IMG/VR virus record: IMGVR_UViG_3300036466_000345
Location: 1-36,763 of that record
Direction: 5' to 3' (one strand)
DNA from: a virus
Length of the DNA stretch: 36,763 nucleotides
The position numbers were made by a program, and so were the translations under genes. This document shows positions 694-36,763 of the stretch, piece after piece; position 1 is the stretch's first letter, and every line of letters begins with the position of its first letter. Below the pieces are notes generated by a model. It was not told the origin of the DNA, did no database searches, and saw nothing but the letters and a program-made list of their open reading frames with translations.

Positions 694-924
694 ATGATTA
701 AGGGTGTGAATATAGAGATTTATGGGTGCAGCGGCTCAGGAAAGACAACCATTCTGCACATTATCGGCAAGGCCTTAACGGATGCAGGCATGCATGCCAA
801 AGCCATCGACGATCTCGGTGAAGTGAAAGAGTTTAAACCTACTCTTCCGACGCCTGCTGATGATCGTGAAATCTCGATGGCAACATTCACAGAATGCAAC
901 GGGGTTGCTGGTGACAAGGGGTGA
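694..924 (+). CDS. Small P-loop (Walker A) protein, 76 aa
   Basis: The N terminus reads as a hydrophobic strand followed by GCSGSGKTT (residues about 11-19), a clear Walker A nucleotide-binding loop, followed by an amphipathic helix. Nothing after residue 40 looks like Walker B, and at 76 aa it is far shorter than usual P-loop NTPases, so it is either a minimal phage-type protein or a remnant. I chose ATG 694 because a perfect GGAGG (684-688) precedes it by five bases; an upstream in-frame ATG at 682 would place that GGAGG inside the gene. Substrate and role are unknown. Confidence 0.55.
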   Translation: MIKGVNIEIYGCSGSGKTTILHIIGKALTDAGMHAKAIDDLGEVKEFKPTLPTPADDREISMATFTECNGVAGDKG

Positions 925-956
925 TTCTCCTGATTGTCACTACTGACATTAGCAAC
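903..956. promoter_or_regulatory. Nested inverted repeats, candidate operator/promoter region
   Basis: GTTGCT (903-908) pairs with AGCAAC (951-956), GTGACAA (911-917) pairs with TTGTCAC (934-940), and a smaller dyad TGTCA-CTAC-TGACA lies at 936-949. TTGTCA at 934-939 could serve as a -35 element for the gene starting at 974. A related sequence TGTCA-TTAC-AGACG lies at 1-14. The arrangement suggests a repressor operator, but the cognate repressor is not visible in the window. Confidence 0.35.
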
Positions 957-973
957 AGATAAGGGTTTTCGCA

Positions 974-1213
974 ATGGAAAAAGCACGTATACGTGAAGTC
1001 GATGTCTCTGCCACCTTGGACGCGGTGCGCGCCAAGCATGAATCGATCCGGGCGTATTGCCGCCATATCAAGATCCATCCGGATACGTTTTACCTGGCGT
1101 TGCGCGGCAAGCGCGGACGCACCCGTAAGGGAAGCCAGGCGGCCCAGGTTATGCGCCGACTGGAAAAGGACAACTTGCTGGTTTTTATGAGCAGCCATGT
1201 TTCGAACGGTTGA
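974..1213 (+). CDS. Putative small DNA-binding protein, 79 aa
   Basis: A basic protein with helical segments separated by a turn (residues about 24-45: IRAYCRHIKIHPDTFYLALRG style) followed by a KGSQAAQVMRRLEKDNLL helix. The pattern resembles small helix-turn-helix phage proteins, and its position directly before the CII-like gene fits an early regulator. I cannot assign a named family. The ATG is at 974, with only weak purine-rich sequence (ATAAGGG) upstream. A dyad-rich candidate operator lies immediately upstream at 903-956. Confidence 0.5.
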   Translation: MEKARIREVDVSATLDAVRAKHESIRAYCRHIKIHPDTFYLALRGKRGRTRKGSQAAQVMRRLEKDNLLVFMSSHVSNG

Positions 1214-1277
1214 TTTCATACTTATCAGTATGGCGGGGTTTTGGCCCCTGTGAAATTAAAAAGGGAGCGGGTTTTTT

Positions 1278-1736
1278 ATGAAATCGCACGATGCTATCAG
1301 GCGCTGTGTAAACGGTCATCATGAGGATATCGCCAAGGCGACGGGAAGGTCGATCAATCTGATTTATCGCTGGACCTTGCCGACTTCGGATTATACGGAC
1401 TCGGGTGCGTATAACGACCTGGACCGCATCGAGTCGATGATCGATAAGAGCCTCAACCTCGGCACCCCCGCCGCCGATGCGCTTGCGCCTGTCTACTATC
1501 TGGCGCAGCGTTTCGGCGGTTTTTTTATGCCTCCTGTACCAAGATCTTATGAATTGAAGGACATATCAAAGCAGTTGTGTTCCGCGATGAAAGAGGCAGG
1601 CGAACTCTTTGCTGCGGCCGCTGCCGCATTGGATGATGACGACCTGAGCAACGACGAGAAAAAACAGATTGTCAAGGAAGCTCATGACGTCATGGCTGAG
1701 GTGGCGACCCTGACACGGATGGTCGAGGGAGGATAA
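1278..1736 (+). CDS. CII-like phage regulatory protein, 152 aa
   Basis: The sequence matches the pattern of the phage regulatory protein CII family (P2/186 type): an N-terminal helix-turn-helix (residues about 1-32, HEDIAKATGRSINLIYRW), then a linker recording a YNDLDRIESMID segment, a hydrophobic LAPVYYLAQRFGGFF segment (residues about 70-85) and a long C-terminal helical tail suited to oligomerisation. CII proteins activate transcription or promote lysogeny. The ATG follows AAAAAGGGAGCGGG. It is the first of a run of tightly spaced genes (next start three bases after its stop), so it probably heads an operon. Confidence 0.7.
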   Translation: MKSHDAIRRCVNGHHEDIAKATGRSINLIYRWTLPTSDYTDSGAYNDLDRIESMIDKSLNLGTPAADALAPVYYLAQRFGGFFMPPVPRSYELKDISKQLCSAMKEAGELFAAAAAALDDDDLSNDEKKQIVKEAHDVMAEVATLTRMVEGG

Positions 1737-1738
1737 CG

Positions 1739-1933
1739 ATGAACGCCGACGATCGCGAGTTGTTGAAAGAGATCCGGGAGCAAAACCGGGAAATCCTAAA
1801 ACTGCTGAACAACGGCGCATTGCCTGACGGTGGCCTGACGGTAACACAGATTGCCTCGGCTCCGGATCCGATTGCGGCAATCAGAGAGCGCAACAGGCAG
1901 GTTAAGAGTCGTCAAAAAACGAGGAAGTCATGA
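1739..1933 (+). CDS. Hypothetical coiled-coil protein, 64 aa
   Basis: A short, strongly charged protein; residues 1-22 form a likely amphipathic or coiled-coil helix (DRELLKEIREQNREILKLL), and the C terminus is basic. It starts two bases after the CII-like gene, with GGAGG just before, and overlaps the next gene by four bases (ATGA), so it is translationally coupled on both sides. Function unknown; a partner or accessory to the CII-like protein is possible but not shown. Confidence 0.5.
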   Translation: MNADDRELLKEIREQNREILKLLNNGALPDGGLTVTQIASAPDPIAAIRERNRQVKSRQKTRKS

Positions 1934-2202
1934 TCGGATGGGCGCGCAAATGGCTGGACCGGCGCAGGGTTAGAAAACGTCTTGCGAAATTGAATCTGTC
2001 AGAATCCAGACGCTTGAAACCGATCGTCGTCCCAGAGTTTTGTCCTATATGTGGTCGAAAAATGCACGGGCCTGTGCATCCCATAAATGAAATCACCCCG
2101 TTTGGGGTCAGGGTTCTCCTGGTGTGCAACACCTGTAAAACCCTTGGCTTTTTGGAAAGCGCAGTCACCGCAGCGGCGGAGAGATCCGCTGCTGCTCCCT
2201 AG
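1930..2202 (+). CDS. Zinc-ribbon-like protein, 90 aa
   Basis: The N-terminal 30 residues are very basic (WLDRRRVRKRLAKL). They are followed by two cysteine pairs, CPIC (residues about 38-41) and CNTC (about 67-70), the arrangement of a zinc ribbon. This suggests a small nucleic-acid-binding protein. It overlaps the preceding gene by four bases. The C terminus (AAAERSAAAP) is low complexity. No specific family or target can be named. Confidence 0.5.
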   Translation: MIGWARKWLDRRRVRKRLAKLNLSESRRLKPIVVPEFCPICGRKMHGPVHPINEITPFGVRVLLVCNTCKTLGFLESAVTAAAERSAAAP

Positions 2203-2213
2203 CCGTCACAGGT

Positions 2214-2288
2214 CAGCCCGCCTGGTCGGCTCTCACCTCAAAACGGGCTGCCTCCCTGTGTGCCCGGCGGGTCTGACCGCCCGCCGGG
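2214..2288 (+). promoter_or_regulatory. Two hairpins ahead of the 2312 gene
   Basis: CAGCCCG (2214-2220) can pair with CGGGCTG (2244-2250). Further on, CCCGGCGGG (2263-2271) pairs with CCCGCCGGG (2280-2288) over an 8-base loop and is followed by AATTTTTC, giving a terminator-like hairpin just upstream of the ribosome binding site of the next gene. An attenuator or weak terminator within the early operon is plausible. Confidence 0.45.
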
Positions 2289-2311
2289 AATTTTTCAAAA
2301 GGAGAGAAACG

Positions 2312-2602
2312 ATGAACATATCTTTTGTCGAAAAAAAGCGGCCGCCGACAGACCTTTCAGAGATCATTGTAAACGGAAAAGTCGTCGGTGAATTAAAGGA
2401 ACACCGCAATCGCGATTATGGCAGCCCTTACCACGCAGTAATCCACCTTTGGCCCGAATTTTTTCGCGGCGGCAGCGGCATGATTCAGGGGCACGGCGAC
2501 ACGCCGGGAGAGGCTATCCGCGACGCCATTGATACCACAAAAGCCTTTATATCTCGCTTGAGCGTTGAACTTGAGCGATTTGAACTATCCATTTCATCGT
2601 AA
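2312..2602 (+). CDS. Hypothetical protein, 96 aa
   Basis: A soluble protein with alternating strand and helix character: a strand around residues 16-25 (EIIVNGKVVGEL), an aromatic stretch HAVIHLWPEFF (about 42-52), and a C-terminal helix beginning at DTPGEAIRDAIDTTKAFI. The ending resembles small alpha/beta proteins of the HicB or DUF1902 sort, but I do not claim membership. The ATG at 2312 is supported by a strong GGAGAG seven bases upstream. The reading frame is open further upstream, but through hairpin-rich intergenic DNA. Confidence 0.5.
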   Translation: MNISFVEKKRPPTDLSEIIVNGKVVGELKEHRNRDYGSPYHAVIHLWPEFFRGGSGMIQGHGDTPGEAIRDAIDTTKAFISRLSVELERFELSISS

Positions 2603-2694
2603 ACCGGGCTCAGTGCCCTCCCGGTCAGTGGAAAAAGGGCAGCTACCACGGCCGTCGGTCGGTTTCGACTCCTGGCCGGCCGGCGGTTCGATAA
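2601..2694. other. GC-rich inverted-repeat spacer
   Basis: The gap between the 96-aa gene and the next small gene contains ACCGGG paired with CCCGGT near 2601-2624 and a larger imperfect stem around 2660-2692 (CCGTCGGTCGG against CCGGCCGGCGG). No uridine-type tract follows, so I do not call a terminator. It resembles the hairpin-rich spacer at 2214-2288. Confidence 0.3.
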
Positions 2695-2707
2695 CAAGGG
2701 GGATTTG

Positions 2708-2899
2708 ATGATCGATCGCGTGTGTATGTTTTGCGGAGCGGTTTACGGGCAAAAGCCGGGTCTGGGATGTGATGGTCCGACACATGGAATCTGCCCAAGT
2801 TGCGAACCGCATGCCCTGGATCTGCTCGAGGATGGTCCGGGCGGTGAAAGCATGCCGTTGTCGGATCTTGGTCGCGAGGTGGCTTATGTCGGTTGTTAA
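2708..2899 (+). CDS. Small protein with two cysteine pairs, 63 aa
   Basis: Contains CMFC near the N terminus and, about 20 residues on, GICPSC preceded by THG: a C-x2-C ... C-x2-C pattern typical of a small zinc finger. ATG 2708 has a GGGGGA ribosome binding site; a TTG immediately before it at 2705 is a possible alternative. The gene ends inside the start of a 34-codon frame (2886). No function can be assigned beyond probable metal or nucleic acid binding. Confidence 0.5.
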   Translation: MIDRVCMFCGAVYGQKPGLGCDGPTHGICPSCEPHALDLLEDGPGGESMPLSDLGREVAYVGC

Positions 2900-2990
2900 C
2901 AGGGTCCTTGATGGTGTGGCTGCGGTTGCCGTGGCTATGGGCGTTTTGCTGATAGCTTGTCATACGATTGGAGGTTTTTGTGGGGGCTGA
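2886..2990 (+). CDS. Possible 34-aa membrane peptide
   Basis: A short frame beginning at ATG 2886 encodes a peptide that is almost entirely one hydrophobic segment (VAAVAVAMGVLLIACHTIGG), a single predicted transmembrane helix. It overlaps the previous gene by 14 bases and the next by 11, as coupled phage genes often do. It has no strong ribosome binding site of its own. It is too short for family assignment; it could be an unannotated micro-membrane protein or chance. Confidence 0.35.
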   Translation: MSVVNRVLDGVAAVAVAMGVLLIACHTIGGFCGG

Positions 2991-3153
2991 ACGTCAACTT
3001 ATTCAAGAAATGCATAAAGCAGAGGACAGGATCCGTTCTCGGGTGGCCAGGCAGGTTAAGCAGTATTCCCACGAGGAGATCGAGGCGATCTCTGACGATC
3101 TTGAGCCGCCTAAGCGGTCTTGTCCGGATTACAGGAGGTACGCGCATGTCTGA
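2980..3153 (+). CDS. Hypothetical protein, 57 aa
   Basis: A short charged helical protein (ERQLIQEMHKAEDRIRSRVARQVKQY). I chose GTG 2980 because GGAGG (2970-2974) lies five bases upstream; a TTG at 2968 would leave that site inside the gene. It overlaps the preceding membrane-peptide frame by 11 bases and the next gene by eight. Function unknown. Confidence 0.45.
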   Translation: MGAERQLIQEMHKAEDRIRSRVARQVKQYSHEEIEAISDDLEPPKRSCPDYRRYAHV

Positions 3154-3571
3154 TTTGCAAACGAAATTGGATGATCTGCTGAACGATCTGGATCTGACGA
3201 TCAAAGAACGTGGTTGGATCCGGGAAAACTGGAAGACCAACCGTGCAGCTCGCCAGGTGGTGAACCTGATCGGCGAGGTGACTGATCAAGATACGATGGA
3301 ACAAAAGCGCATCGTGCTCGAGCAGCTTTTCGATGCGGTGAAACGGGTCCGTAAAATCATGCAGTCGGAGCATTTTAACGCGCCGGTTGGGTTTTCTCTG
3401 GTCGATGAGACGGCGCTGGATGCTTTCCGTCAGGTGGCTGCGTGCCAGCTGCAACTTGCAACGCTCGGGACGCGAGACCCGTCTCGTGGAACCTTGATCA
3501 AAAGGATGAACCTTTTAGCTCGGACGGCCGCGAACCTCGACCCGGCGGTGGAGGACCTGGCGCATGCCTGA
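3146..3571 (+). CDS. Hypothetical helical protein, 141 aa
   Basis: A soluble, mostly helical protein with no cysteine cluster or membrane segment. ATG 3146 follows AGGAGG by nine bases, an excellent site. The middle (residues about 55-75, LEQLFDAVKRVRKIM) is amphipathic. It overlaps both neighbours by eight bases and so sits within a tightly coupled early operon. I do not recognise it. Confidence 0.55.
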   Translation: MSDLQTKLDDLLNDLDLTIKERGWIRENWKTNRAARQVVNLIGEVTDQDTMEQKRIVLEQLFDAVKRVRKIMQSEHFNAPVGFSLVDETALDAFRQVAACQLQLATLGTRDPSRGTLIKRMNLLARTAANLDPAVEDLAHA

Positions 3572-3758
3572 GGCTGCCTGCATGACCTGCCGGAATCGGT
3601 GGCGCTGCCCTGATGAAGGTGATCTGCAGCGGGAAACGTTTTTTGCCATGGGCAAGGGGAAATCGGTGCCTGAATGCCGTGATTATGTGCCGCTTTATTA
3701 CCGCGGCGTGGAGGGGGTTTTGGAAAGGGCTGTCCGACGTACTGTGTCACATCATTGA
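3564..3758 (+). CDS. Cysteine-containing small protein, 64 aa
   Basis: The sequence begins with a C-x2-C pair (CMTC), followed by RWRCPDEGD and a later ECRDY, giving four cysteines in the first 40 residues, consistent with a small metal-binding fold. It overlaps the previous gene by eight bases. It is the last of the first early run; a 93-bp gap with a prominent inverted repeat follows. Confidence 0.45.
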   Translation: MPEAACMTCRNRWRCPDEGDLQRETFFAMGKGKSVPECRDYVPLYYRGVEGVLERAVRRTVSHH

Positions 3759-3851: not shown

Positions 3852-4463
3852 ATGCAGACAATACGCACCAAGGCCGGGGAAAACTACCTGACCGAATCCG
3901 AGGAAAAAAAGCTGTTTAATCATCTGAAGCGGCTGAAGGACAAGCAGGCGGAGAGGGACTTTGTCTTGCTGAAGACTTGCCGGCTGCTGGCACTGCGTCG
4001 CAGAGAGGCGCTGGCCTTGAATGTGGGCGATGTGTTTGGCGCGACTTCGCTGGAGATCGACGAGCACATCGCGGCCAAGGGGGCTGTGGGGAGCTTAAGC
4101 ATCCCGGTGGAGCTGCAGGACATACTGCAGCGCTTTTTGAAACTGAAACGGAAATGGGGCGAGGACATGACAGACGATGCCCCACTGTTTGTCTCGAAAA
4201 AGGGTAACCGGTTGGCGCTTCGCACTTTCAACGACCTGGTGGACAAATGGTGTCGCGAGGCTGGCGTCGAGCGGATCACGCCGCATGGCCTGCGTCATAC
4301 CAAGGGCCGGCGGATCATGGACGATGTCCGGCATCTGAACGAAGAGGAGCGGGACAAAAAGCTGCTGCTGGCGAATCGCCAGCTGCGCCATAAGAGCATG
4401 ACCGCGACATTGATCTATACCGCTCCTACCAAGGAGGAGATGGAGAAAGTGGGGGCCCTGTGA
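3852..4463 (+). CDS. Tyrosine recombinase, catalytic domain only, 203 aa
   Basis: The product contains the signature residues of tyrosine recombinases in order: the first Arg in a LALRRREAL context (residues about 47-55), HGLRHT (H-x-x-R, about 145-150), a second histidine in RQLRHKS, and the nucleophile Tyr in TLIYTAP near the C terminus. It lacks the usual N-terminal SAM-like core-binding domain, so at about 200 aa it is catalytic-domain sized. It lies inside the early operon, away from the attachment site at the right edge, so it is unlikely to be the main integrase; DNA inversion, resolution or a regulatory role are alternatives. Good ribosome binding site (AAAGGAGAGG). The next gene overlaps it by four bases. 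Confidence 0.8.
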   Translation: MQTIRTKAGENYLTESEEKKLFNHLKRLKDKQAERDFVLLKTCRLLALRRREALALNVGDVFGATSLEIDEHIAAKGAVGSLSIPVELQDILQRFLKLKRKWGEDMTDDAPLFVSKKGNRLALRTFNDLVDKWCREAGVERITPHGLRHTKGRRIMDDVRHLNEEERDKKLLLANRQLRHKSMTATLIYTAPTKEEMEKVGAL

Positions 4464-4726
4464 CACCAACAAAGAATTTCAGAGAGATATGCGCCCGTGT
4501 CGAGGCGGGCTTGACGACAGCCAGGGAGGCGAAGGAACTGGTGAAAATCGTTGAAAGGTTGGTATGGAAACGTGATTTGTTGGACGACGAGGGCCAGGTA
4601 ATCACCATAGCAGAAAGACTGGAGCGTATGTCGGACCCGAATAAGACAGTTGAAACATGCCGACATTGTGGGCACACGCGATCCCTCGGGCACAGACGTG
4701 GTTGCCTCGCAGGTGACATCGAATAA
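4460..4726 (+). CDS. Hypothetical protein with C-terminal Cys/His cluster, 88 aa
   Basis: A GTG start at 4460 overlaps the recombinase stop (GTGA). The first 60 residues are helical and charged. The C terminus carries CRHCGHTR...GHRRGCL, a Cys/His set compatible with a small zinc knuckle. It may act with the recombinase because of translational coupling, but the sequence does not show this. Confidence 0.45.
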   Translation: MTPTKNFREICARVEAGLTTAREAKELVKIVERLVWKRDLLDDEGQVITIAERLERMSDPNKTVETCRHCGHTRSLGHRRGCLAGDIE

Positions 4727-4737
4727 AGGAGAAAGCA

Positions 4738-5316
4738 TTGAGATCTCAAAAGCATTTCAACGCCTGCAACGTATTTGGTCGGGTGGTGGATGGAATAAAG
4801 AGGGATACATCAAGTGGAGGTAGTGAATATATCTCTTTTACGGTCAATGTATCGGGCAGCAAGTGCGGATCGGTAAGGGCGTATTGCCGGATGTGGAGAC
4901 CGGAGCGTTTCGAGCCATTTCTTGATTGTCTCAAGAAGAACCAGGATGCGGTCTTTTGGTTAAAGGGCTTCTTTGGCCAGTACTGGAACGACCGTAATGA
5001 GGTGATGAGCAACTTTACATGCTTTCAGTGGGAGCCTCGAGACAGCGAACCTCGGGCGGCTTTTATCCTCAAGGGTTTGGTGGATCAGGCGCAGAGTGTC
5101 TCATCTGGACAACGTCTTTTGCTCAAGATCGACCGAGACGGCCAGCCGGTTGAAACATTTGAGTTGTGGAACCAGGCGGAGAAGTTTCTTGACGAGCCGA
5201 ATCCTGGGGATCTGATCGAGGCCAAGGGCTATCTGCGGCAGGAAACACCGGAGGATGATTTCGGGGGCAGCTGCGGACCGGTAAGGGCTTACATCGAAAA
5301 GTTGAGGATCCTGTGA
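4738..5316 (+). CDS. Putative OB-fold / SSB-like protein, 192 aa
   Basis: The N-terminal half has a pattern seen in single-stranded-DNA-binding OB folds: an initial NACNVFGRVVDG strand, then EYISFTVNVSG, a charged loop, and DAVFWLKGFFGQYWND, followed by SNFTCFQWEPRD. The second half (residues about 105-192) repeats a similar strand logic (AAFILKGLVDQAQ, LLLKIDRDG, GDLIEAKGYL), so a tandem OB arrangement is possible. The TTG start at 4738 is supported by AAAGGAG. It lies upstream of the primase gene, consistent with a replication role. Family membership is inferred from pattern only. Confidence 0.45.
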   Translation: MRSQKHFNACNVFGRVVDGIKRDTSSGGSEYISFTVNVSGSKCGSVRAYCRMWRPERFEPFLDCLKKNQDAVFWLKGFFGQYWNDRNEVMSNFTCFQWEPRDSEPRAAFILKGLVDQAQSVSSGQRLLLKIDRDGQPVETFELWNQAEKFLDEPNPGDLIEAKGYLRQETPEDDFGGSCGPVRAYIEKLRIL

Positions 5317-5621
5317 GCGTTGAGGCCTGCACAAAGTTTTATCGTGAGAAGCATACTCAGGCGGCCAAGGTGTTTGAAGAGCGCTACGGGGACATCTTGG
5401 CCCGTGGTGAAAGGAGCATCTCTGAGTGGGCTGCAGAGCAACAGTCGGAGCTTTACAAAAAGATGCGGGCCGCCGAGCGTGATGTCGATGCCTTATGGAA
5501 AAACGGGGTGTTCGATGATGGATTTAAGGGTCAGGTGCTTGTCTATCTGCGTTCCTGGTTGGAGATGTCCCGGCTTTATGCCGTTGAGATCAAGAGCGAG
5601 ATGGGCAGGGAGGTGGCGTGA
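5313..5621 (+). CDS. Hypothetical helical protein, 102 aa
   Basis: A GTG start overlaps the preceding stop by four bases (GTGA). The product is almost wholly helical and charged (EKHTQAAKVFEERYGDIL, QSELYKKMRAAERDVDALW), without cysteines or membrane segments. It overlaps the next gene's start region. Function unknown; its position in the coupled SSB-like/primase stretch suggests an accessory replication or regulatory role, which is only contextual. Confidence 0.5.
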   Translation: MSVEACTKFYREKHTQAAKVFEERYGDILARGERSISEWAAEQQSELYKKMRAAERDVDALWKNGVFDDGFKGQVLVYLRSWLEMSRLYAVEIKSEMGREVA

Positions 5622-5887
5622 TGGGTAAAAGACTCGGCTTTATGTATATGGCGAAAAGACCTTGCGGCAAGGTATCCGCCATGGTTTGGGATGACCCTGG
5701 TTGTGAAAAAGAAACGGCCAAATTGATGGCTGGATGGATTCGCAGGGGTGACGCCGTGGAAAGGGTTGAGCGGTTTGATAGTGATCCTCAACCGGAATGG
5801 ATTTGCATCCCTTGCACAAGGTGCATAGGTGATTACCAGGTGCCGTTTATCGAGGGTCCGTTTGGGGAAATGCCGAAAGATAGATAG
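5621..5887 (+). CDS. Hypothetical protein, 88 aa
   Basis: Starts at ATG 5621, the A of which is the last base of the previous stop codon; a GTG directly before (5618) is a possible alternative. It contains a CIPC-x2-C run (residues about 66-71) and two more single cysteines, so weak metal binding is possible. The central part resembles a mixed alpha/beta micro-domain. No family recognised. Confidence 0.45.
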   Translation: MGKRLGFMYMAKRPCGKVSAMVWDDPGCEKETAKLMAGWIRRGDAVERVERFDSDPQPEWICIPCTRCIGDYQVPFIEGPFGEMPKDR

Positions 5888-6735: not shown

Positions 6736-9700
6736 ATGAGTGATTTTGAGCGAGTCAAAGCGGCGCTGAATATACAGGATGTCATCACAGGGCAGACACA
6801 CTTAAAAATGGGCAAGGCGCATCTTGAGAAATGTCCGTTTTGCGAGGGGCATGATTGTTTTTCCATCCCAAAGGGCAAGGACGGATTCAAATGCTTTCAG
6901 TGCGATAAATCCGGGGATGTTTTCACCTTTTTGGAGGAGTATCACGGGCTTGACAAGGCCGGCGCGTTGCAAATGGCCGCGGATCTGGCGGGTATCGAGT
7001 TGGAGAAGCGCAAGAAAGGTAGCGGCATTCGCCTGAGCAAGGTGGACAAGGTTCGGTTGGCGGCGGTGGATTATTACCACGACCATTTCCTTAAAAATGG
7101 TGGCAAAAATTATTTTGTTGAGCAGCGCGGGCATAAGCCTGAGACATCCGACAGGCTTCGAGTCGGTTTTTCAGATGGTGGACTGCTTGATCACTTGCGT
7201 TCACAAGGATTTGAGGACAAGGACATCCTTGCGTCTGGCCTGGTAATGGAAAGGGAGTTTGACGGCCAGAAAAGGGCCGTGGACTTTTTTGGCCGGGGCC
7301 TGGTGCTTTTCCCGCACTTCTATAAGGGCAGGGTGGTGCATTTCACCCAGAAGGACCCTGAAAAGAAGCGGAACTTTCAATTGTCATCGGAGTTTCGGCA
7401 CAAAGAGTGGCGTTTTTACAATCAGGACGCTCTGGACAAGTTTCAGGAAATTCTGCTGGTTGAAGGGGAGAACGACCTGGCGTCGGTGCTGGATGCTGGC
7501 GTAACAAACGTGATCGGCCTGATCGGGCAGATTTCGGACGAACAAATCAAGGCTCTTGGGGCCAGGGCGCGTGGCAAAAAGCTGTATCTTTGGATGGATA
7601 ACGATGAACATCCGGAGCAGCCTTTTTCAAAGGGTAAGGGCTATGCGCGCAAGATTTGTCAGAGGTTGCCCGACCTCGATATCCGTATTGTGGTGTATCC
7701 GGATGAGATAAACGACCCGGATGACTACCTGCGAGGTTTTTCTGGGGATACTCGGGCAGAGATCAAACGGTTGATGAGGGAATCCCTTGATTATTTATCT
7801 TGGGAAATCCTCCAGGTCAGCCGTTTGCAGGATCTCGAGGTGAAGCTCGAGGCGTTGAAGGCGCGTAAGGTGTTCTCTCGAATTGCTCTGCAGACGGAGA
7901 TTCAACAGCAAATCTACATTGAAAAGCTGGAAAAGCTTGGGTTCAGCAAAAAAGCTCTGGAGGAGCAACTTGAAGGTAGTCAGGATCTGCGCCAAGAACT
8001 TGACCGCTATTTTACGCTTTTGGAGAGTGAGCGAGACGCGGATCCAAACGCGATTGCAGAGATCATCTACCGCTATTTCGCGCGTCATGGCCGTTTTTAT
8101 TTTGATGGGACCGATACGGTTTACCTGATTTTCAAGGCGCGCACCTTTGAGGTGGCGAATAATACGGCTTTCAACAGTCTGATGCACCGCATGACGAGGC
8201 TTCTTTACACGCGGGCTCCTGGGAACAGTGTATGGGAGGCCTTGCGGTGCATCGCATACAACAGTGGCCGTCGGATCGATCGGGCGCAGTGGATCTATAC
8301 GGATGATATCCAGGATGCGATCTACCTGAATTTCAACTGCCCGAATAACCGCATACTGAAAATTTCGCCGGCGGGGATCCAGGAGATCCCGAACGGGATG
8401 AATGATGATCATATCCTGCTGTCGCAGTCGGACAAGATCATGCCGTTTAACTGGCTGCCGGATGCCGATATCCATGAGGGTATGGAAGCGCTCCAGGAGC
8501 TTGTGGTTGACAACTTGGTTTGCGAGCGCAAGCAACGCTATTTCATCTTGTGCTGGCTGATCTCTGGGTTCCTGTCAGGGTTTGCACCGTACCAAGGATT
8601 GATGAAGTTCAGCGGGACAAGCGGCGGCGGGAAATCGACTGCTGCAAAGTTGTTCACCACGCTGTTGTACGGTGATGAGCAACTGTCGGATCCAACAGGT
8701 GCTGCAGCATATTCGCTGGCGGCGCAAAACCCCTTGCTGGTCATCGACAACCTCGAGGGTAAAGACATCACGCGAACGATGCAAAAGTTCCTGTTGTTGC
8801 TGGCTACCCGGGGCAAGAAAGAGAAACGCACCAGCGGCACGGAAAGCGATACGACACAGGAAGCGCCGCGAGCGCTAGGCTGCATTACGGCTATTGAGCC
8901 CTTCACTCTCCCTGAATTGATCAACCGAACATACGACATCTATTTTGATGTCGGCCGCTGGGGCAGTGACGGCTTTTATGAATCTGATGTGCTGTCACAG
9001 ATCAAAAAGCAGCGGGATCTCATCCTGTCTGCGCTCCTGAAATTTATCCAGAAAGACATCCTGCCGAACCTGGATCAACGCAAGGACTTTATCACCGTTT
9101 TACGGAGAGAATACAAAGGACACGCCAAGGAACGCACCAATGAATACCTGGCGCTGCTGATGCTTGTTCTTGATCAGGTGCTGAAATATATCCCATGGTA
9201 CGGACCCTATGACCTGATGAGTGGTTTGGAGACCGGGGCGAAGGAGATCCGCCAGGCGTGGATCGAGGAACAGAACGCAAAAGCCAAGGACACGGAAGTC
9301 ACGAGCAACGACATCCTGAAGCTTCTCGACGGCCTGGTGAGGGAATACCTGCAGACGCTGAAGAACAAGAATGTTACCCCACAGCATTACGATGGCTACG
9401 ATGATGAGGTTTTTGTCCTGGAACACCAGGAATACGGATTGACATTGATCAAAACAAAACCTCAGACAGTGCATGACGACCAGGGTGAGCGATACACGAT
9501 GGCTCACATCGAATTCACCGCGACATCGGCCGACCTGGTACATGCCTTTGATCGTTTCTGCCGCAACAGCGGTACCCGCAATCCCTACGGGAATGCCGCG
9601 GTGTTTGGCTCGCGCCTGAAAAACGATATGAAGTTACTTGCCAAAGGTGGATGGGACCTGGTGACGTCGGAGGGCAAGGAGCCTTATTTTCGAATCGTGC

Positions 9701-10436: not shown

Positions 10437-10560
10437 TCTCCCCACCCCCCCTGCAAAAGATTCAGAGCAAACGGCTATGCCCGCCCGCCCAGCTGCGTTT
10501 CAGTATTGGGCTAAATCCCATGGTTTTTTCCAAAAGCGGGGGGTGCGGGGGGAATGGTGA
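10417..10560 (+). CDS. Doubtful 47-aa leader-like frame
   Basis: An ATG at 10417 with AAAGGA upstream opens a 47-codon frame that overlaps the start of the recombinase gene by seven bases. The product is proline- and charge-rich with no recognisable feature. It could be a leader peptide translated through a C-rich/G-rich pairing region (10440-10451 against 10538-10552) that covers the recombinase ribosome binding site. It could equally be chance. Confidence 0.2.
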   Translation: MGLTGDVLPTPPAKDSEQTAMPARPAAFQYWAKSHGFFQKRGVRGEW

Positions 10561-11513
10561 CCGAACTCCTGGACAGATGGCAGAGACATATGCGGATCCT
10601 CCGTGCTTTATCCGAGGACAGCTGCAAGGCATACCGTGCCAAGGTCGATGAGTTTCTTTCTTGGGCCGTCGAATCAGGCCGCCCTGCGGATCCACGCCAG
10701 GTACATCGAAAGGATATCGAAGCCTGGCTCGAACATCTTTTCTACCGCGGCAACAGCAATGCAACCAGGGCCGCAAAGACAACAGCCTTGCAGCACCTTT
10801 TTCGCTGGCTCGTTTATGAGGGTGAGGTTGATAAAGATTTAACTGAAGACATCCCAAAACCAAAGGTACGGCGCACCTTTGTTCAGAAGTACACCAAGGG
10901 CGAAATATACCGATTTTTTCGCCAATGCGACATAACGACAAGCAAGGGCCTGCGTGATGTTGCGATCCTGATCATGATGGCATTTGCAGGTTTGCGCGAC
11001 GGCGAGGTCTGCAACCTCGCTATTGCCGACCTGGTCGACGATGGACAACGCATTGATGTCAATATCGTCAAAACAAAAAAGGATTCATTCCGCACTGTCT
11101 ATCTCTGGAAAGCTCCCTCCATCATCGTGCGCGAATGGCTTACCATCCGGCTTTCGCATGGGGCCGGCCCTAGCGATCCACTGTTCGTAAGCTTTCGCAA
11201 AGGCGATCAGTGTCAAGGGAAATCCCTCAAGCAATCTGACATCGATCACCTGGTAAAAGCCTTGGCCAAACAAGCACAGATCCGCAAGGCACGCATTACG
11301 CCACATATGTTTCGCGCAACCCATATCAGCGATCTCCGACATATCCGCGGTTATGACATTGCCGCGATCGCCGAGCGGGTCGGACATAAACAAATCAGCA
11401 CAACCGATAGATATATCCCCTCCCGCGGGAGGATCCATAGGGAATACCCTAGCCTTGCTGCTTACTGGAATGATTTTACGAAAGTCTGGAGTTCGGAGGG
11501 ATTGGATGAGTAA
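10554..11513 (+). CDS. XerC-like tyrosine recombinase, 319 aa
   Basis: A full-length tyrosine recombinase. Residues 1-90 form the SAM-like core-binding domain (SCKAYRAKVDEFLSWAVE). The catalytic domain carries the first Arg in AGLRDGEVCNL (about 145-155), a beta-hairpin lysine in VKTKKDSF, H-x-x-R in HMFRATH (about 250), RVGHKQ and the nucleophile in TTDRYIP (about 284-290). It is a typical Xer/phage integrase in length. There is no integron-integrase insertion between the conserved boxes, so it is not IntI. ATG 10554 follows a GGGGGG ribosome site. Placed next to the putative origin and overlapping the Mor-like gene by eight bases, it may resolve replicated phage dimers or serve as a second integrase; the sequence does not decide. 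Confidence 0.85.
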   Translation: MVTELLDRWQRHMRILRALSEDSCKAYRAKVDEFLSWAVESGRPADPRQVHRKDIEAWLEHLFYRGNSNATRAAKTTALQHLFRWLVYEGEVDKDLTEDIPKPKVRRTFVQKYTKGEIYRFFRQCDITTSKGLRDVAILIMMAFAGLRDGEVCNLAIADLVDDGQRIDVNIVKTKKDSFRTVYLWKAPSIIVREWLTIRLSHGAGPSDPLFVSFRKGDQCQGKSLKQSDIDHLVKALAKQAQIRKARITPHMFRATHISDLRHIRGYDIAAIAERVGHKQISTTDRYIPSRGRIHREYPSLAAYWNDFTKVWSSEGLDE

Positions 11514-11787
11514 CGGTAACCACTGGTGGGAAGGCCGAGACGCCATCCAGGCCTTCGGCAACAGAATGGTATCGGAATACGGGCAGGCGACAGGAGAGGC
11601 AATTGTCAGGGCGTTGTATGAAGAAGCCGGGGGGATGAGGCTGCGGGTACCAACCTTATCGGATCTTGAGAGGCAGCAGAGGGATGACCGTATCCGCATT
11701 CTTTTCAATGGGCGGAACCATCAGGAATTGGCCGCACGATTTGGAATCACGGATACGCATGTTAGGCGCATTTTGGAAAAAGGATAG
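11506..11787 (+). CDS. Mor-family transcription activator, 93 aa
   Basis: The sequence fits the Mor transcription activator family of Mu-like phages: an N-terminal dimerisation-type helical segment (GNRMVSEYGQATGEAIVRALYEEAGGMRLRVPT) and a C-terminal helix-turn-helix (DRIRILFNGRNHQELAARFGITDTHVRRIL, residues about 62-91). Mor and C proteins bind as dimers upstream of weak -35 regions and turn on middle or late operons. ATG 11506 overlaps the recombinase stop, with GGAGGG upstream. It is the natural candidate to act at the repeated motif upstream of 13941 and 20113. Its last codons contain GTTAGGC (11761-11767), a sequence that matches the classical integron core site. Confidence 0.8.
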   Translation: MSNGNHWWEGRDAIQAFGNRMVSEYGQATGEAIVRALYEEAGGMRLRVPTLSDLERQQRDDRIRILFNGRNHQELAARFGITDTHVRRILEKG

Positions 11788-11850
11788 GAAAGGAGCATGC
11801 TTGTGCGGCTTAAAACGAAGCTTAAAAAGGATCATAAAGAAGGCGACACC

Positions 11851-12024
11851 ATGAATAAAACCGCTTTTTTGTGGTTGCCTAAAAAAATTGGCAACGAGTT
11901 TCGCTGGTTAGAACGTGCCACTTGGCAGCTGAAATATATGAGCCAGGCACCTCTATTGCCAATTGGGCAAGGCTACTCACCAAGCCAGAGGGTTTATGGG
12001 TGGGTGGCGATTAAGTGGGTATAA
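11851..12024 (+). CDS. Hypothetical 57-aa protein, cassette-like gene
   Basis: A small aromatic-rich protein (FLWLPKKIGNEFRWLERATWQLKY) of unknown function. ATG 11851 is preceded by AGAAGG; an upstream in-frame ATG at 11797 would add 18 basic residues. The stop TAA is embedded in TATAAC (12020-12025), the start of an attC-like structure, exactly where integron cassette genes usually end. Proteins of this type (short, Trp-rich, ending near GYxxxxxVYGWVAIKW) are common among cassette ORFans, though I cannot name a family. Confidence 0.5.
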   Translation: MNKTAFLWLPKKIGNEFRWLERATWQLKYMSQAPLLPIGQGYSPSQRVYGWVAIKWV

Positions 12025-12086
12025 CGATAAAGGTAACCGGTGAGGCGTGGCTTTTCGCGCCGATCCGGTTGACCGTATGGTTAGCA
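12020..12086 (+). other. attC-like recombination site 1
   Basis: Layout from left to right: R'' box TATAAC (12020-12025), 6-base spacer, L'' GGTAACCGG (12032-12040), variable terminal stem with GGCG/CGCC, L' CCGGTTGACC (12065-12074), 5-base spacer, R' GTTAGC (12080-12085). L'' and L' pair perfectly over 9 bp except for one extra G in L', the extrahelical base expected in attC folding. The TAA stop of the 57-aa gene lies inside R''. R'' and R' share only four paired bases, as expected when R' is completed by the next cassette. Confidence 0.75.
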
Positions 12087-12114
12087 AAGCCTTTGTAGAA
12101 AGGAGCAATTTCAG

Positions 12115-12912
12115 ATGATTACCGTTTTACACCATGCAGACGCCGATGGATTCGGGGCAGCTTACGCCCTTTGGAAGACGTTTGACCAGGAGGCCAAGTT
12201 CATCCCTGTGCAGTACGGGCAACCCGTGCCGGAGTTGCCGGAGGAAACGGACTGCCTGTATATCGTGGATTTCTCGTATGACCGGGAAACCACCCTGGCA
12301 CTGGCCCGCAGGTTCGGGGTTGGCTCCATCGTGGTCATTGACCACCACAAGACGGCAGAAAAGGAACTGGCCGGGCTGATGTTCGCCGAGTTCGACATGA
12401 ACAAAAGCGGGGCTGTTCTGGCCTGGGAGCACGGCAACCCGTTTTGGCCTGTGCCGTCGATCCTCCGCTATGTGCAGGACCGCGACTTGTGGAAATTCGA
12501 GCTGCCGCACTCGGAAGAGGTGAACCTCTACATTGCATCGCTGCCGTGGGATTTCGAGGTGTGGGACCGCTTCGATCTGCCAACCGCCGTGGCGGATGGG
12601 ACGGCGATTAAGGCATTCCGGGACAACCAGATCAAGACGGCCCTCCGCGATGCGCGGGTCATTGACTTCTTCGGGCACTCAGCCCCGGTGGTCAACTGCT
12701 CGGCCAACATTTCCGAGGTCGGGCACGAACTGCTGAAGGCTCACCCTGACGCGCCGTTCGCGGTGATGTACTGCGACCGGGGAGACGGCCAGCGGAGCTA
12801 TTCGCTGCGCTCGCGGGGGGATTTCGACGTGGCCGAACTCTGCCGTGAGCATGGTGGGGGAGGACACAGGGCGGCTGCTGGATTCGCCACGACTGCCCCT
12901 TTGGCTTGCTAA
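12115..12912 (+). CDS. DHH-family phosphoesterase, 265 aa
   Basis: Contains the DHH hallmark motifs: HHADADG (residues 6-12), an Asp in YIVDFSYD (about 51-58), VIDHHKT (about 79-85) and the DHHA1-type glycine-rich C-terminal motif GGGGHRAAAGF (about 246-256). DHH/DHHA1 proteins are Mn-dependent phosphoesterases acting on oligonucleotides, cyclic dinucleotides or polyphosphate; the exact substrate is not shown. It starts about 34 bases after an attC-type junction with AAAGGAG ahead of ATG 12115, and its TAA stop lies within TTGCTAAC of the next attC-like site. It therefore has the layout of an integron gene cassette. Confidence 0.85.
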   Translation: MITVLHHADADGFGAAYALWKTFDQEAKFIPVQYGQPVPELPEETDCLYIVDFSYDRETTLALARRFGVGSIVVIDHHKTAEKELAGLMFAEFDMNKSGAVLAWEHGNPFWPVPSILRYVQDRDLWKFELPHSEEVNLYIASLPWDFEVWDRFDLPTAVADGTAIKAFRDNQIKTALRDARVIDFFGHSAPVVNCSANISEVGHELLKAHPDAPFAVMYCDRGDGQRSYSLRSRGDFDVAELCREHGGGGHRAAAGFATTAPLAC

Positions 12913-12963
12913 CGCCTCGCTGAACTGGCTGCGCGCAGCTCCGATCAAGCGCCTTGTTAGCAA
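12906..12963 (+). other. attC-like recombination site 2
   Basis: R'' TTGCTAAC (12906-12913) and R' GTTAGCAA (12956-12963) are perfectly complementary over 8 bp. Five-base spacers GCCTC and GCCTT separate them from L'' GCTGAAC (12919-12925) and L' GATCAAGC (12943-12950), which pair with one extra base in L' and one mismatch. The apex is the palindrome GCTGCGCGCAGC (12928-12939). Box order, spacer lengths, unpaired central spacer, extrahelical base position and a 58-bp size all match known attC sites. The DHH gene stop codon lies inside R''. Confidence 0.85.
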
Positions 12964-12983
12964 AAACACTGGAGGAAATATAA

Positions 12984-13238
12984 ATGACAGCAGAATTAAT
13001 TTACATGCGTGACGATGGCTCTGCCACCGGATACATGGAGCTGACAAGTAGCGACGACCCGAAAGCCGTTGCCTACATTCGAGCGGACCTAGCCGGGAAC
13101 ATCTCAATGCGTGAGAAGCGAGACTTATTCGCCCCTGGCGCGGAATGCGAACCGGATTTTAAGGTGCCATGCAAGGAGTGCCTGCACCACCATACGGACG
13201 AGCTTGAGTACCCATGTGCGGCATGCAAGCATTGCTAA
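12984..13238 (+). CDS. Cysteine-rich protein, 84 aa, cassette-like gene
   Basis: The first 50 residues form a mixed alpha/beta domain of unknown type. The C terminus carries CKECLHHH...CAACKHC, a dense Cys/His cluster that probably binds zinc. ATG 12984 is preceded by GGAGG and lies about 27 bases after the preceding attC-type junction, and its TAA stop is inside TTGCTAAC (13232-13239). This repeats the cassette layout of the DHH gene. Function unknown. Confidence 0.6.
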   Translation: MTAELIYMRDDGSATGYMELTSSDDPKAVAYIRADLAGNISMREKRDLFAPGAECEPDFKVPCKECLHHHTDELEYPCAACKHC

Positions 13239-13285
13239 CGATATAGATCACGGGCTTGCGGCTTTAAAGCAATAGCCAAAAAACT
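13232..13285 (+). other. Degenerate or half attC-like site 3
   Basis: TTGCTAAC (13232-13239) is identical to the R'' box of site 2 and again contains the stop codon of the gene before it. The expected GTT-type R' box is missing: the equivalent position reads AATAGCCA (about 13270-13277). A small hairpin GGCTTGC / GCAA-TA-GCC is present between. I interpret this as the end of the cassette run, with the right half of the site lost or decayed. Confidence 0.45.
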
Positions 13286-13300
13286 TTAACGGAGGCAACT

Positions 13301-13483
13301 TTGAGTGAAGAAAATTTGAATACCCCCGCTGGTAGCAAGTCCGCCGTGGATGGGCTGGTTATGCGTAGATGTGCCACATGCGGAACAGAGAGGCCAGTAA
13401 AAGAAATGAAAGTCTGCATGGATAGCAGGCAGATGCACAGATATGTGTGCGACTCGAAATGCATGATCGAGTTTTACGCATAA
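13301..13483 (+). CDS. Small zinc-finger-like protein, 60 aa
   Basis: A TTG start at 13301 is supported by a strong GGAGG seven bases upstream. Contains CATCG...C...(H)RYVCDSKC, a C-x2-C ... C-x3-C arrangement typical of small treble-clef or zinc-ribbon phage proteins. It ends in CATAACAG, a weaker version of the cassette-end pattern, but no partner box is visible. Function unknown. Confidence 0.5.
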   Translation: MSEENLNTPAGSKSAVDGLVMRRCATCGTERPVKEMKVCMDSRQMHRYVCDSKCMIEFYA

Positions 13484-13514
13484 CAGTAGAATATGCCGAC
13501 CGTGCAAGGTTGCT

Positions 13515-18724: not shown

Positions 18725-19858
18725 TTGAAAGAAATTATGACACACAAATCGGGCAAATTCGTTTTTTCGAGCGAATATGACAAGCTTGAGATAATCCCAT
18801 TGCTGATCCGTGCAGCCATTACCAACGAAACCATCAGCGATCTGCCCATACTCCCGGCCCTGGCTTCGTCACTCAAGCCAGAACTTTTGGTGAAATCAAT
18901 TCGCGGGACGGTCTCCCTCGAGGGGAACCCATTAACAGAAGATGAGGTCAAGCAAGTCATTGATGAGCCAGACGATCTGGCAGCTTTTGACAAATTCAAA
19001 ACCGAAGTAAGAAATGTTAAAAATGCCTACGATTTTATCAATAAATATCCATATGATGACGGAGTATTTATCCTCACAGAGGACTTTATTTGTCAGGTGC
19101 ATAAAATTGTTACCAAGGGTCTTGATCATGGAAGGCTTACGCCGGGAAAATATAGAAATGAGGTCGTTTGGGTTGGTGACAAAGAACATGGAGGTGTATA
19201 TAAGGCACCAAAATGTCTTGATGATATTAAAATGCTTATGAAGGAATTTATTGAATGGATAAACAGTGATGACATTTTAAGAGAAAATGTATTTATACGT
19301 GCCTTTTTATCTCATTATCACTTTTGCCTAATCCATCCTTTCCTTGACGGCAATGGCAGAACAGCAAGGATCATAGAAGCAGCCATACTAAGAAGCGCAG
19401 ATATTAAGTTTTTACCCAAAATGCTTTCAAACTCATATTATAAGAATACTGATGGGTATTATATAGCCTTTAGAGATTCAGAGAAAAATGGAAAAGATGT
19501 TACTAAGTTTCTTGAATTTTGTTTTAAAATGGCAATTGAAGCACTCGATTCGATAAAACAAAAGGTTATATTTTTTATTCGCGATTTTGCACTAAAAGAT
19601 TTTTACAATCACTTAAGAACTGAAAAGAAAATCAAGGTTAGGCAGTATGACCTTATACGGGTGCTGCTAGAAAATAACATGAGCTTTAACCTCGAAAAGC
19701 TTTTTGAGGATGTCCATTTGTTGATTCTTTATAGAAAGGTATCGAAGGCTACGGCTAGAAGGGACATTAAGGAGCTATTGCAAAAGGGAATAATTATCTC
19801 CACAGATAAAAAGGAATATGTCCTCAATAAAAATATTCTCGATTATATTGACAACTAA
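18725..19858 (+). CDS. fic: Fic-family protein with N-terminal inhibitory motif, 377 aa
   Basis: Fic enzymes usually transfer AMP from ATP to a hydroxyl of a target protein. The canonical motif HPFLDGNGRTAR is present from residue 204, with the catalytic His. An inhibitory helix motif TVSLEGN (about 62-68, matching S/T-x-x-x-E-G/N) lies N-terminal to the core, so this is an auto-inhibited class II type. Residues about 290-377 look like a winged helix. The TTG start at 18725 has AAGGGGAT upstream; ATG 18737 is the alternative. Flanked on both sides by terminators, with its own candidate promoter and much higher AT content than its neighbours, it looks like a horizontally acquired moron gene inserted in the late operon. 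Target unknown. Confidence 0.9.
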   Translation: MKEIMTHKSGKFVFSSEYDKLEIIPLLIRAAITNETISDLPILPALASSLKPELLVKSIRGTVSLEGNPLTEDEVKQVIDEPDDLAAFDKFKTEVRNVKNAYDFINKYPYDDGVFILTEDFICQVHKIVTKGLDHGRLTPGKYRNEVVWVGDKEHGGVYKAPKCLDDIKMLMKEFIEWINSDDILRENVFIRAFLSHYHFCLIHPFLDGNGRTARIIEAAILRSADIKFLPKMLSNSYYKNTDGYYIAFRDSEKNGKDVTKFLEFCFKMAIEALDSIKQKVIFFIRDFALKDFYNHLRTEKKIKVRQYDLIRVLLENNMSFNLEKLFEDVHLLILYRKVSKATARRDIKELLQKGIIISTDKKEYVLNKNILDYIDN

Positions 19859-32214: not shown

Positions 32215-33900
32215 ATGCCTAAGCACTACCTGAAATTGCAAGAGACGACCGTGATTAAAATACTCGATTATGGCGGCCTGCTCATCCACATAACCGCCGC
32301 AGGAGTCGACGTTCACGCGATGGATGGGGAGCGCCTCGCTTTCGCAACATTGGCAAACGTGACCTGCGGGGCCGTCAACGACAACGGTGTGTTTTTGGGG
32401 ACGTCAGCTAACGGAGTTTATAAGTTGACGCATGCGGCCATTGCGGCAGGCGGAGATCAAACCGCAGCACTAAGCCAGACCATTACAACCGGTACGACTC
32501 CGGCACTTGCAAACAACGCAGTTGCCTGGATAGCCGGCAGCGGGACGGCCCTACTATTGACGACGGCAGCCGGGGCAGATTACCTGCCAAACGCTTCCAC
32601 GGTGTATCGCTACAGCGACGCAAGTGGCTGCGCGTTTTGCGCGATCGGCTCAACGCAGATCGCATACTCTCTGGCAGACGGCACCCTCCACTTTTTAACA
32701 ACCCCATCGGCCGATTGGACATCTGGAGACGTAACAAGCTATCCCGTCGGAGGAGGGACTCCGGAGCTGACGAAGTTATCGGCTGCACCTTCCGCGGCAT
32801 CAACCGTCCGTGGATGCGCCTGGAGTGGAGATTACCTGGCCGTTGCGCATGACGGATCGCCCGGCGTGAAGATGTACAAAAAAAGCGGAGAGGCCCTGAC
32901 CCTCGTCGACTCCGTCGCCCACCTCGCCTACAACACCTATTGCGTCGCCTGGAACGGCGACTATTTGGTCGCCGGATACTACGACAGTAACCGCCTGGCC
33001 CTATACCTGCGCAGCGGGGACGACCTCGTCAAGCAAACGGATCCGGCAGCATGCCCAAACCGCGTTTATGGGGTAGCCTGGGGCGGCGACTATTTGGCCG
33101 TCGCCATGTACGGCGGCTATCTGTGGTTTTTCAGACTCGATGCCGGAGCCTTGACAAAGCTAACGACGCCAACCGCGCCACCAGGGACCGCCAACGGGTG
33201 CGCCTGGAGTGGCGATTACCTGGCTGTCGCGCATAACGGCGGATCGGGAGTGTCGCTGTATAAGCGCAGCGGAGACACCCTGACGCTGCTCGCAAACCCA
33301 CCCGATACCGGCGGGGACGGGATGGGCTGCTCTTGGAGCGGAGATTACCTGGCCGTCGCAACAAACACCAGCCCATACCTGGCGTTTTACAAGCGCAGCG
33401 GAGACACCCTGACCAAGCTCACGAACCCGACATCGGTTGGAGGCCTGGCAAATTCGTGCTCCTGGAACGGCGATTATCTGGCCGTCGCATATGCGACATC
33501 GCCATACCTGGCATTCTATGAGCGTAGCGGTGACACCCTGGTTAAAAGGGCAAACCCGACCGCCCTCGACGGGACAGGTTATCACTGCGATTGGGGTGGC
33601 GATTACCTGGCTGCGGTGCATAGCGGCTCGCCTGGCGTTTCGTGGTACAGGGGGCCGGTTGCCGGCCTGCCAGGCGCCGTCACGGCGCTTTCTTTCGGGA
33701 GTAGCCTTTTTATTGGCACCCAAAATGGGATAAGCATCGAGGAAAGCGGCCTTGTTTCCGTGACGGATATCGGCAGTGTTCTAGAAGTCAGCGACCTACA
33801 AGCTGGCCCGTCGGCGACATCGACAAGCGGACTGCTGGCCTACAGCACCGACGACGGCCAAGGTGGTGGCAAATTTGCCATCCGCGACATGAGCGCATAA
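32215..33900 (+). CDS. Tail protein with inserted seven-repeat beta-propeller, 561 aa
   Basis: Residues 1-180 are paralogous to the N terminus of the next gene (AAGVDVHAMDGERLAF, NVTCGAVNDNGVFLGTS). Residues about 185-480 contain seven repeats of a GDYLAVA unit (SGDYLAVAH, NGDYLVAGY, GGDYLAVAM, SGDYLAVAH, SGDYLAVAT, NGDYLAVAY, GGDYLAAVH) spaced by about 40 residues with a Y-x-RSGDTL strand, as in a seven-bladed propeller. Residues 485-561 again match the paralogue (LLAYSTDDGQGGGKFAI). Likely a receptor-contact or tail-fibre-like protein. Good ribosome site CAGGAG. Confidence 0.7.
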   Translation: MPKHYLKLQETTVIKILDYGGLLIHITAAGVDVHAMDGERLAFATLANVTCGAVNDNGVFLGTSANGVYKLTHAAIAAGGDQTAALSQTITTGTTPALANNAVAWIAGSGTALLLTTAAGADYLPNASTVYRYSDASGCAFCAIGSTQIAYSLADGTLHFLTTPSADWTSGDVTSYPVGGGTPELTKLSAAPSAASTVRGCAWSGDYLAVAHDGSPGVKMYKKSGEALTLVDSVAHLAYNTYCVAWNGDYLVAGYYDSNRLALYLRSGDDLVKQTDPAACPNRVYGVAWGGDYLAVAMYGGYLWFFRLDAGALTKLTTPTAPPGTANGCAWSGDYLAVAHNGGSGVSLYKRSGDTLTLLANPPDTGGDGMGCSWSGDYLAVATNTSPYLAFYKRSGDTLTKLTNPTSVGGLANSCSWNGDYLAVAYATSPYLAFYERSGDTLVKRANPTALDGTGYHCDWGGDYLAAVHSGSPGVSWYRGPVAGLPGAVTALSFGSSLFIGTQNGISIEESGLVSVTDIGSVLEVSDLQAGPSATSTSGLLAYSTDDGQGGGKFAIRDMSA

Positions 33901-36082: not shown

Positions 36083-36763
36083 TCAAGTGCTTTGCTTGTC
36101 TTCTGTCTCACTGGTGTAGCCAGGCAGTTTGGCTGATTCGTTGCGTAAATGCTGGTTTCGTACATGGATATATTCCCGGGTTGTGCGTATGTCGCTGTGC
36201 CTGCCGATGAGCTGCAGGGCTGTTATTTCGACGCCACATTCGATGCCATGGGTGAAAAAGCTGTGCCGGAACAAGTGGGCATAGGTGCGCTGGTCGAGCC
36301 CGGCTTTTTTCGCGGCCCGGATGATGGCTTTGCGGATACTGTACCAGGGCTTTTTTGTTTTCGGGTTGATGAACAGATACCCGCTAGGACGCTGCGTTTT
36401 GGCCTGCTCCAGAGCTTCAAGTAATCTGGGAGTGGTTATGGGTACGATGCGCTCTTTGTTGCCTTTGCCGACGATCCTGATCTCGCCGCTTTTTAACCAG
36501 ACATTTTCGGCTTTAAGCTGCAGAGCCTCTTCACGCCTCATGCCCATGTCGTAATAGAGCAGCAGGATCGGGCGGTATTTGTCCTCGATAGCATCGATAA
36601 CGGCCTGTACCTCTTCGATGGTGGGCACACGCAGTTGCGGACGGGATACTTTTGGAAACATGGGGATCCGGAATGGCGGCTGGTTGCAGTAGCCATTGAC
36701 GGCCGACCATTTCCAAAGGCTGCTGAACCAGGTCATTTCTTTATTGATTGTCCGCTTGCTGAC
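36083..36763 (-). CDS. int: Tyrosine-type phage integrase, N terminus beyond the window
   Basis: Carries all catalytic residues: Arg in MGMRREEAL, Lys in GKGNKER, HLFRHSF (H-x-x-R), IGRHSDIRTT and nucleophile REYIH. The frame stays open to the last base (VSKRTINKE before the first internal ATG at 36736), and this region is part of the core-binding domain, so the start and arm-binding domain lie outside the window. It reads toward the tRNA-Phe att core, as integrases usually do, and is the best candidate for site-specific integration at tRNA-Phe. Confidence 0.85.
   Translation of the reverse strand, partial: VSKRTINKEMTWFSSLWKWSAVNGYCNQPPFRIPMFPKVSRPQLRVPTIEEVQAVIDAIEDKYRPILLLYYDMGMRREEALQLKAENVWLKSGEIRIVGKGNKERIVPITTPRLLEALEQAKTQRPSGYLFINPKTKKPWYSIRKAIIRAAKKAGLDQRTYAHLFRHSFFTHGIECGVEITALQLIGRHSDIRTTREYIHVRNQHLRNESAKLPGYTSETEDKQST

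Follow-up and report, generated by a model that had tools for sequence, protein, structure and literature searches.

The window analysed here (the whole stretch of 36,763 bp) is the record of a tailed phage, with gene content read by profile matches in the order primase-like protein, XerD-like recombinase, Mor activator, a cassette region, and then TerS, TerL and portal (Table 1). The recombinase is probably the phage's own integrase. A search with TIGR02249 detects no IntI above the cut-off anywhere in the window record, in agreement with the initial annotation, made from the sequence alone, which saw no IntI. The record contains three tyrosine recombinase genes in total; in the two others (3852-4463 and 36083-36736), the N-terminal domain is unmatched. 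Elsewhere in this genome, a 377-aa ORF with a Fic motif (HPFLDGNGRTAR) at 18725-19858, between portal and the later structural genes, has the look of a cargo gene, and the protein encoded at 32215-33900 is rich in WSGDYLAVA-type repeats and might be a beta-propeller.

Table 1. Coordinates of the cassette region of the window and of the genes to its left
Feature	Coordinates	Strand	Basis
XerD-like tyrosine recombinase, not IntI	10554..11513	+	TIGR02249 59 bits vs cut-off 265; XerD/XerC models best
Mor-family late activator, left border of the variable region	11506..11787	+	PF08765, E 1.8e-13
75-aa gene, stop codon inside GGTATAAC	11797..12024	+	phrog_11031; no attC 5'
attC site A, of the DHH cassette	12019..12086	-	R1 48.2 bits, E 1.7e-10; R2 46.9 bits, E 1.5e-9 (whole window)
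Cassette 1: hairpin and DHH-family phosphoesterase gene (12115-12912), inverted relative to attC	12025..12912	+	unit common to L006, L007 and L008
attC site B, of the 84-aa cassette	12907..12962	-	12.9 bits on minus vs 2.7 on plus, unfiltered; end boxes TTGCTAAC/GTTAGCAA
Cassette 2: hairpin and gene for an 84-aa Cys-rich protein (12984-13238)	12913..13238	+	boxes at 12956/13232 complementary over 8 bp
attC site C, large apex, of the 60-aa ORF cassette	13233..13364	-	17.4 bits, E 0.032 in the window
Cassette 3: hairpin and gene for a small Zn-finger-like protein (60-aa ORF; ATG 13361, stop 13483)	13239..13483	+	GTTATGCGT (13358)/ACGCATAAC (13476-13484) complementary over 9 bp

The cassette region contains three attC-like sites within 1.3 kb. 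The elements that characterize attC, namely R''/R' boxes (RYYYAAC...GTTRRRY), 5-6 nt spacers, L''/L' arms, an extrahelical base and a variable apex, are clear at site A and weak at sites B and C. The initial annotation had recognized this architecture at 12020-12086 and 12906-12963, and it is indeed seen at both. The attC covariance-model check that had been proposed, performed with the model R2 (training set: 150 sites drawn from 40 bacterial arrays and the canonical phage TJE1), identifies site A with a score that excludes a chance match. The scores of sites B and C are weak, and single-strand fold energies fail to beat shuffles; site B is identified by its 8-bp box pair and the boundaries of the unit. 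As a control, R2 was run on 284 kb of other phage DNA, part of which was selected for decoy palindromes, and gives a single match with E<0.05, in L180, which is related to the window phage by its TerL. No Rfam family matches the window, and hence Rfam provides no attC test. With at least two close attC sites and no neighbouring intI, the region qualifies as a CALIN; the intI and attI that lie beside the array in a complete integron are absent from the window.

All three R2 sites are on the minus strand and all the genes are on the plus strand. Sites A and C have no comparable plus-strand match, and the extra base shows that, at all three sites, the attC top strand is the minus one. Accordingly, each site goes with the downstream gene rather than with the upstream gene, and attC does not follow the gene in its own polarity at the 3' end. 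Several features of the units that had been noticed initially are borne out, namely start codons about 30 nt past the GTT box, TAA stops within boxes, and TTAGCAA...TTGCTAAC ends of the DHH and 84-aa units, but the polarity and the unit boundaries had been misassigned: the layout was described as that of ordinary cassettes, whereas the genes are inverted relative to attC, as indicated by both the extra base and the model strand. The 75-aa gene, which had been counted as a cassette, has no site of its own and probably is not one; the GGTATAAC at its end is the insertion point of the array. The third unit does not end in an orphan box; instead, the third attC (site C) opens a further unit, with boxes that pair over 9 bp.

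The integron crossover is at G^TT, i.e., AA|C on the opposite strand. Read from the sequence with these boundaries, the mobile unit is the hairpin together with the downstream gene. The last codon of all three units is the gene's own TAA, and the box of the hairpin is complementary to the box at the unit end over 8 bp in both the DHH and the 84-aa units and over 9 bp in the third one, as would be required if every unit had once been circular. The DHH unit is present in three unrelated phages, with DNA identity of 98.7% (L006), 93.1% (L007) and 89.4% (L008). The matches start at 12022 in L006 and at 12020 in L008, both at the upstream TAAC; the match to L007 starts at 12063, inside site A, because the apex differs, but by eye the L007 unit also begins at TAAC. 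All the matches end at 12913-12916, at the downstream TAAC. The flanks are unrelated among the carriers, and what the carriers have in common is the hairpin before the DHH gene. The DHH unit in L006-L008, as well as the cassettes that differ between L192 and L200 (see below), is a precise unit with ends at the boxes. The alternative that these genes simply co-evolve with the rest of the operon and lack precise boundaries was put to the test, and the cassette idea survived. Thus, the original interpretation, integron-type cassettes without an integrase in a phage, is upheld by the model matches, the edges of the DHH unit and the box complementarity, but not with the layout that was proposed.

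An ordinary CALIN captured from a bacterial integron, in which the 75-aa, DHH and 84-aa genes are canonical cassettes with attC at their 3' ends, would equally contain near-palindromic sites with genes between them, and canonical polarity does occur in TJE1 and in the related phage L183. This reading is nevertheless very unlikely given that attC is assigned to the opposite strand at each of the three sites by the extra base and the model scores and that, of the upstream and downstream sites, only the upstream one is included in the unit common to L006-L008.

The 75-aa and 84-aa genes have relatives in the same phage only, so that no empty site can be read from them. Among the TerL relatives of the window phage, the mor-TerS position is common and the array is absent, with none close enough there for an exact empty site. 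In one of these relatives, L183, the same mor-TerS interval contains two attC sites of canonical (+) polarity (2831-2894 and 3230-3290) that flank a 107-aa gene; the family of this gene is also represented in L295, by an inverted cassette gene, and in the L031 phage array, by a plus-strand gene. Polarity, then, can differ among relatives, and inversion is not universal. In L180, there is a lone attC-like match on the plus strand (2294-2354, 29.1 bits). In a further relative, L171 (4270-5090), the mor-TerS interval contains an FRG-domain-like gene between GTTAGGT and ACCTAAC boxes, arranged in the manner of a canonical cassette, with no model match there.

The phage contig L192 (17.3 kb) also bears cassettes and contains ten attC sites on the minus strand and genes on the plus strand, followed by a complete IntI gene on the plus strand. 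This IntI scores 479 bits with TIGR02249 (cut-off 265) and aligns with IntI4 (2a3v) along its length (313 residues, 303 bits). A search started with the L192 IntI identifies 61 viral loci with intI relatives. Where attC sites are present 5' of intI, the genes run toward intI (i.e., are inverted) in 34 viral loci, are canonical in three (one of which, L211, is doubtful on inspection) and are undecided in one; the same pipeline applied to intI loci in bacterial genomes yields 15 canonical, three inverted and five undecided cases. Two of the inverted bacterial loci, L292 and L295 (Thiobacillus), have IntIs nested among those of phages, are followed by a 317-aa phage-integrase-like gene, and are probably prophages; the IntI of the third one, L294 (Ideonella), is nested among bacterial IntIs. 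In the IntI tree (a quick tree with a distant outgroup), most of the IntIs of inverted phage loci are separate from the bacterial ones and orientation switches at least five times; judging by this tree, the inverted phage IntIs do not comprise a single clean clade.

In these phages, the attI/cassette junction is exactly at AA|C. The region from AAC|TTAAATTCAACGACACCC to the start of intI is conserved across 21 phages, and the cassettes to the left of this point are unrelated, which marks attI and its crossover point. Comparison of L192 with L200 and L202, which come from different metagenomes and encode an identical IntI, reveals 99.9% identity over 4.1 kb from about 90 bp upstream of intI and 99% identity upstream of the array, whereas entire cassettes differ between the arrays, the junctions being at AA|C (e.g., GCGCCCTAAC|GTAAAAG vs GCGCCCTAAC|GCTTAGG). 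In L007/L193, where the DHH protein is 95% identical to that of the window, a shortened intI remnant is located beside the array and is followed by TerL; in L193, the remnant (11827-12069) has an apparent internal deletion and adjoins the inverted cassette array. The L193 remnant suggests one route by which CALINs like that of the window may arise. A different candidate for the cassette enzyme, the phage's own tyrosine recombinase, was rejected because PF00589 is found in only 10 of the 26 cassette-bearing records and the enzyme of the window is XerD-like. Separately, L307 (KX853513, Virus Rctr41k; coordinates 4680-5678 and 8400-8580) has an IntI-like gene annotated as xerD as well as attC-like hairpins, apparently canonical on visual inspection, with no R2 match.

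These comparisons also bear on the possibility that the array of the window is an inert remnant, i.e., that the DHH block and its neighbors were assembled by phage mosaicism, through homologous recombination at shared hairpins, with no site-specific recombination at this locus. The lack of IntI in the record and the degeneracy of the two weaker sites are compatible with such a scenario, but it appears unlikely considering the unrelated flanks of the DHH unit in different carriers, the perfectly complementary end boxes kept in all three units, and the sister systems that vary cassette by cassette at AA|C beside an intact intI.

A search for the core GGTAACCGG-N-CCGGTTGACC, conducted independently of genes, shows that the same attC core is present in 47 viral and 89 bacterial stretches. 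In viral contigs, a ribosome-binding site and a start codon come after the core in nearly all cases, whereas in bacterial contigs (Rhodanobacter, Thiobacillus, Nitrosomonas, Methylobacter and others) the neighboring ORFs are on the other strand and follow the attC polarity, with 41 '--' and one '++' among the bacterial sites that have both boxes. Orientation was called for the intervals between consecutive attC sites with a codon model, a simple codon-based gene caller that replaced a tally of ORF lengths, which was too noisy in GC-rich DNA. Among the viral intervals, 68 are opposed to the attC polarity, two have the same polarity and 35 are unclear; the respective numbers for bacterial intervals are three, 39 and 74 (Fisher p 4e-24 for viral vs bacterial, with the qualification that intervals from the same array are non-independent and that the records include near-duplicates). 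As a rule, phages have the gene inverted relative to attC. The distance from the hairpin to the start codon has a median of 26 nt in 182 closed phage cassettes whose plus-strand gene lies near the hairpin, and the stop is within 3 nt of the next AAC in 57 of 137. The short distance to the start codon could be taken to mean that the hairpins serve mainly as regulatory leaders (terminators or RBS-masking structures) and resemble attC; however, the R boxes, the 5-6 nt spacers, the bulged base in one arm and the variable apex all match bacterial attC, and intI and a conserved attI adjoin the hairpins, which makes this explanation extremely improbable. The viral contig L055 contains two arrays, 769-3676 (+) and 11130-12326 (-), on opposite strands, with genes inverted in both.

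TerL (phrog_2) is detected in 15 of 30 and in 6 of 34 records. One intI record without phrog_2 encodes a major head protein, portal, tape measure and central tail fibre J, and another encodes a terminase (phrog_9), major head and baseplate proteins; phage identity is proven for only part of the contigs. The 95 families of cassette proteins include N6/N4, C5 and Dam DNA methyltransferases, Mom, Lar restriction alleviation protein, NinX, exonuclease, RNA ligase, PAPS reductase, MazG and DHH; the commonest family is a methyltransferase, represented nine times across seven loci. The probable role of the system is to allow the exchange of accessory and anti-restriction genes among phages.

CALINs and a few integrons have been described in phages by Qi et al. 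(2023), who report three complete integrons, one In0 and 17 CALINs; those with an integrase belong to Vibrio, Shewanella and class 1 types, five of the six tested phage attC sites recombine with IntI1, and attC sites of divergent direction were noted in P12002L (PMC9892861). Those phages resemble the present ones in having attC and cassettes in phage genomes and DNA methyltransferase cargo; unlike the window, TJE1 has attC polarity that follows the genes and is canonical by the present test. The main text of that paper describes neither an inverted gene-to-attC arrangement nor phage integrons similar to that of L192, and a search of the open-access literature found no description of a phage integron with cassette genes inverted so as to read one way with intI. 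Phage CALINs are thus already known, and the inverted organization appears to be new. The sedentary chromosomal integrons of Proteobacteria share with the phage systems the attC core, the IntI family, the AA|C crossover and the intI/attI/attC geometry, but their cassette genes read away from intI, in the attC polarity. The 'atypical' integrons of Treponema, in which intI is reversed and transcribed toward attI, are similar in that intI and the cassette genes are transcribed in one direction (PMC3607928); in the phage integrons, however, attI is 5' of intI, the 5' end of intI faces the array, and it is the cassette genes that are reversed. The modules of the pdif/Xer system have 28-bp XerC/XerD sites at the ends, whereas those of the window have hairpin ends and a predicted AA|C cut.

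Taken together, these observations make it very probable that the window contains a three-cassette CALIN of a phage-specific form, in which the gene is inverted relative to attC, and that related phages possess the same cassettes within a complete unidirectional integron. The sites, their polarity, boundaries and recurrence, the presence of intI and attI beside inverted arrays, and natural differences in cassettes are all covered by sequence evidence. In the related phages, intI, attI and attC retain their normal relation, but every cassette gene reads toward intI, and platform and cargo thus make up one unidirectional operon. For the enzyme that acts on the window and the strand that it uses, we infer an IntI that is either phage-encoded or provided in trans by a prophage, a co-infecting phage or the host, and that would bind the attC bottom strand folded from single-stranded DNA; this recombinogenic strand would be the coding strand in the phage orientation. 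IntI would then cut at G^TT (AA|C on the coding strand), swapping single cassettes. Because a unit ends with the TAA of its gene and brings a ribosome-binding region, it would be readable from the phage operon wherever inserted.

Phage operons are mostly one-directional, whereas a normal integron reads divergently from attI. The benefit that we infer is that inversion of the genes would unite the array and intI in one operon. With genes that run with the replication fork, the attC bottom strand would also be the lagging-strand template, the position in which cassette excision rises upon inversion of the Vibrio cholerae array (PMC11023631). Placed in a bacterial integron, an inverted cassette would read antisense, as would a canonical cassette in a phage array, and the phage and bacterial cassette pools would therefore be functionally separate. 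It seems likely that a distinct branch of integrons exists in phages, with a conserved phage attI, IntI lineages that are for the most part specific to phages and a separate pool of inverted-gene cassettes, functionally isolated from bacterial integrons although the chemistry is shared.

Integrons are regarded as bacterial platforms in which cassettes are obliged to face away from the integrase. A widespread phage form with reversed genes, if true, would be a second arrangement permitted by the recombination rules and a system for the exchange of phage accessory and anti-restriction genes one at a time. Cassette tools that rely on gene direction would pair the wrong attC with the wrong gene in phages. 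The origin of cassettes and the isolation of cassette pools would become directly testable.
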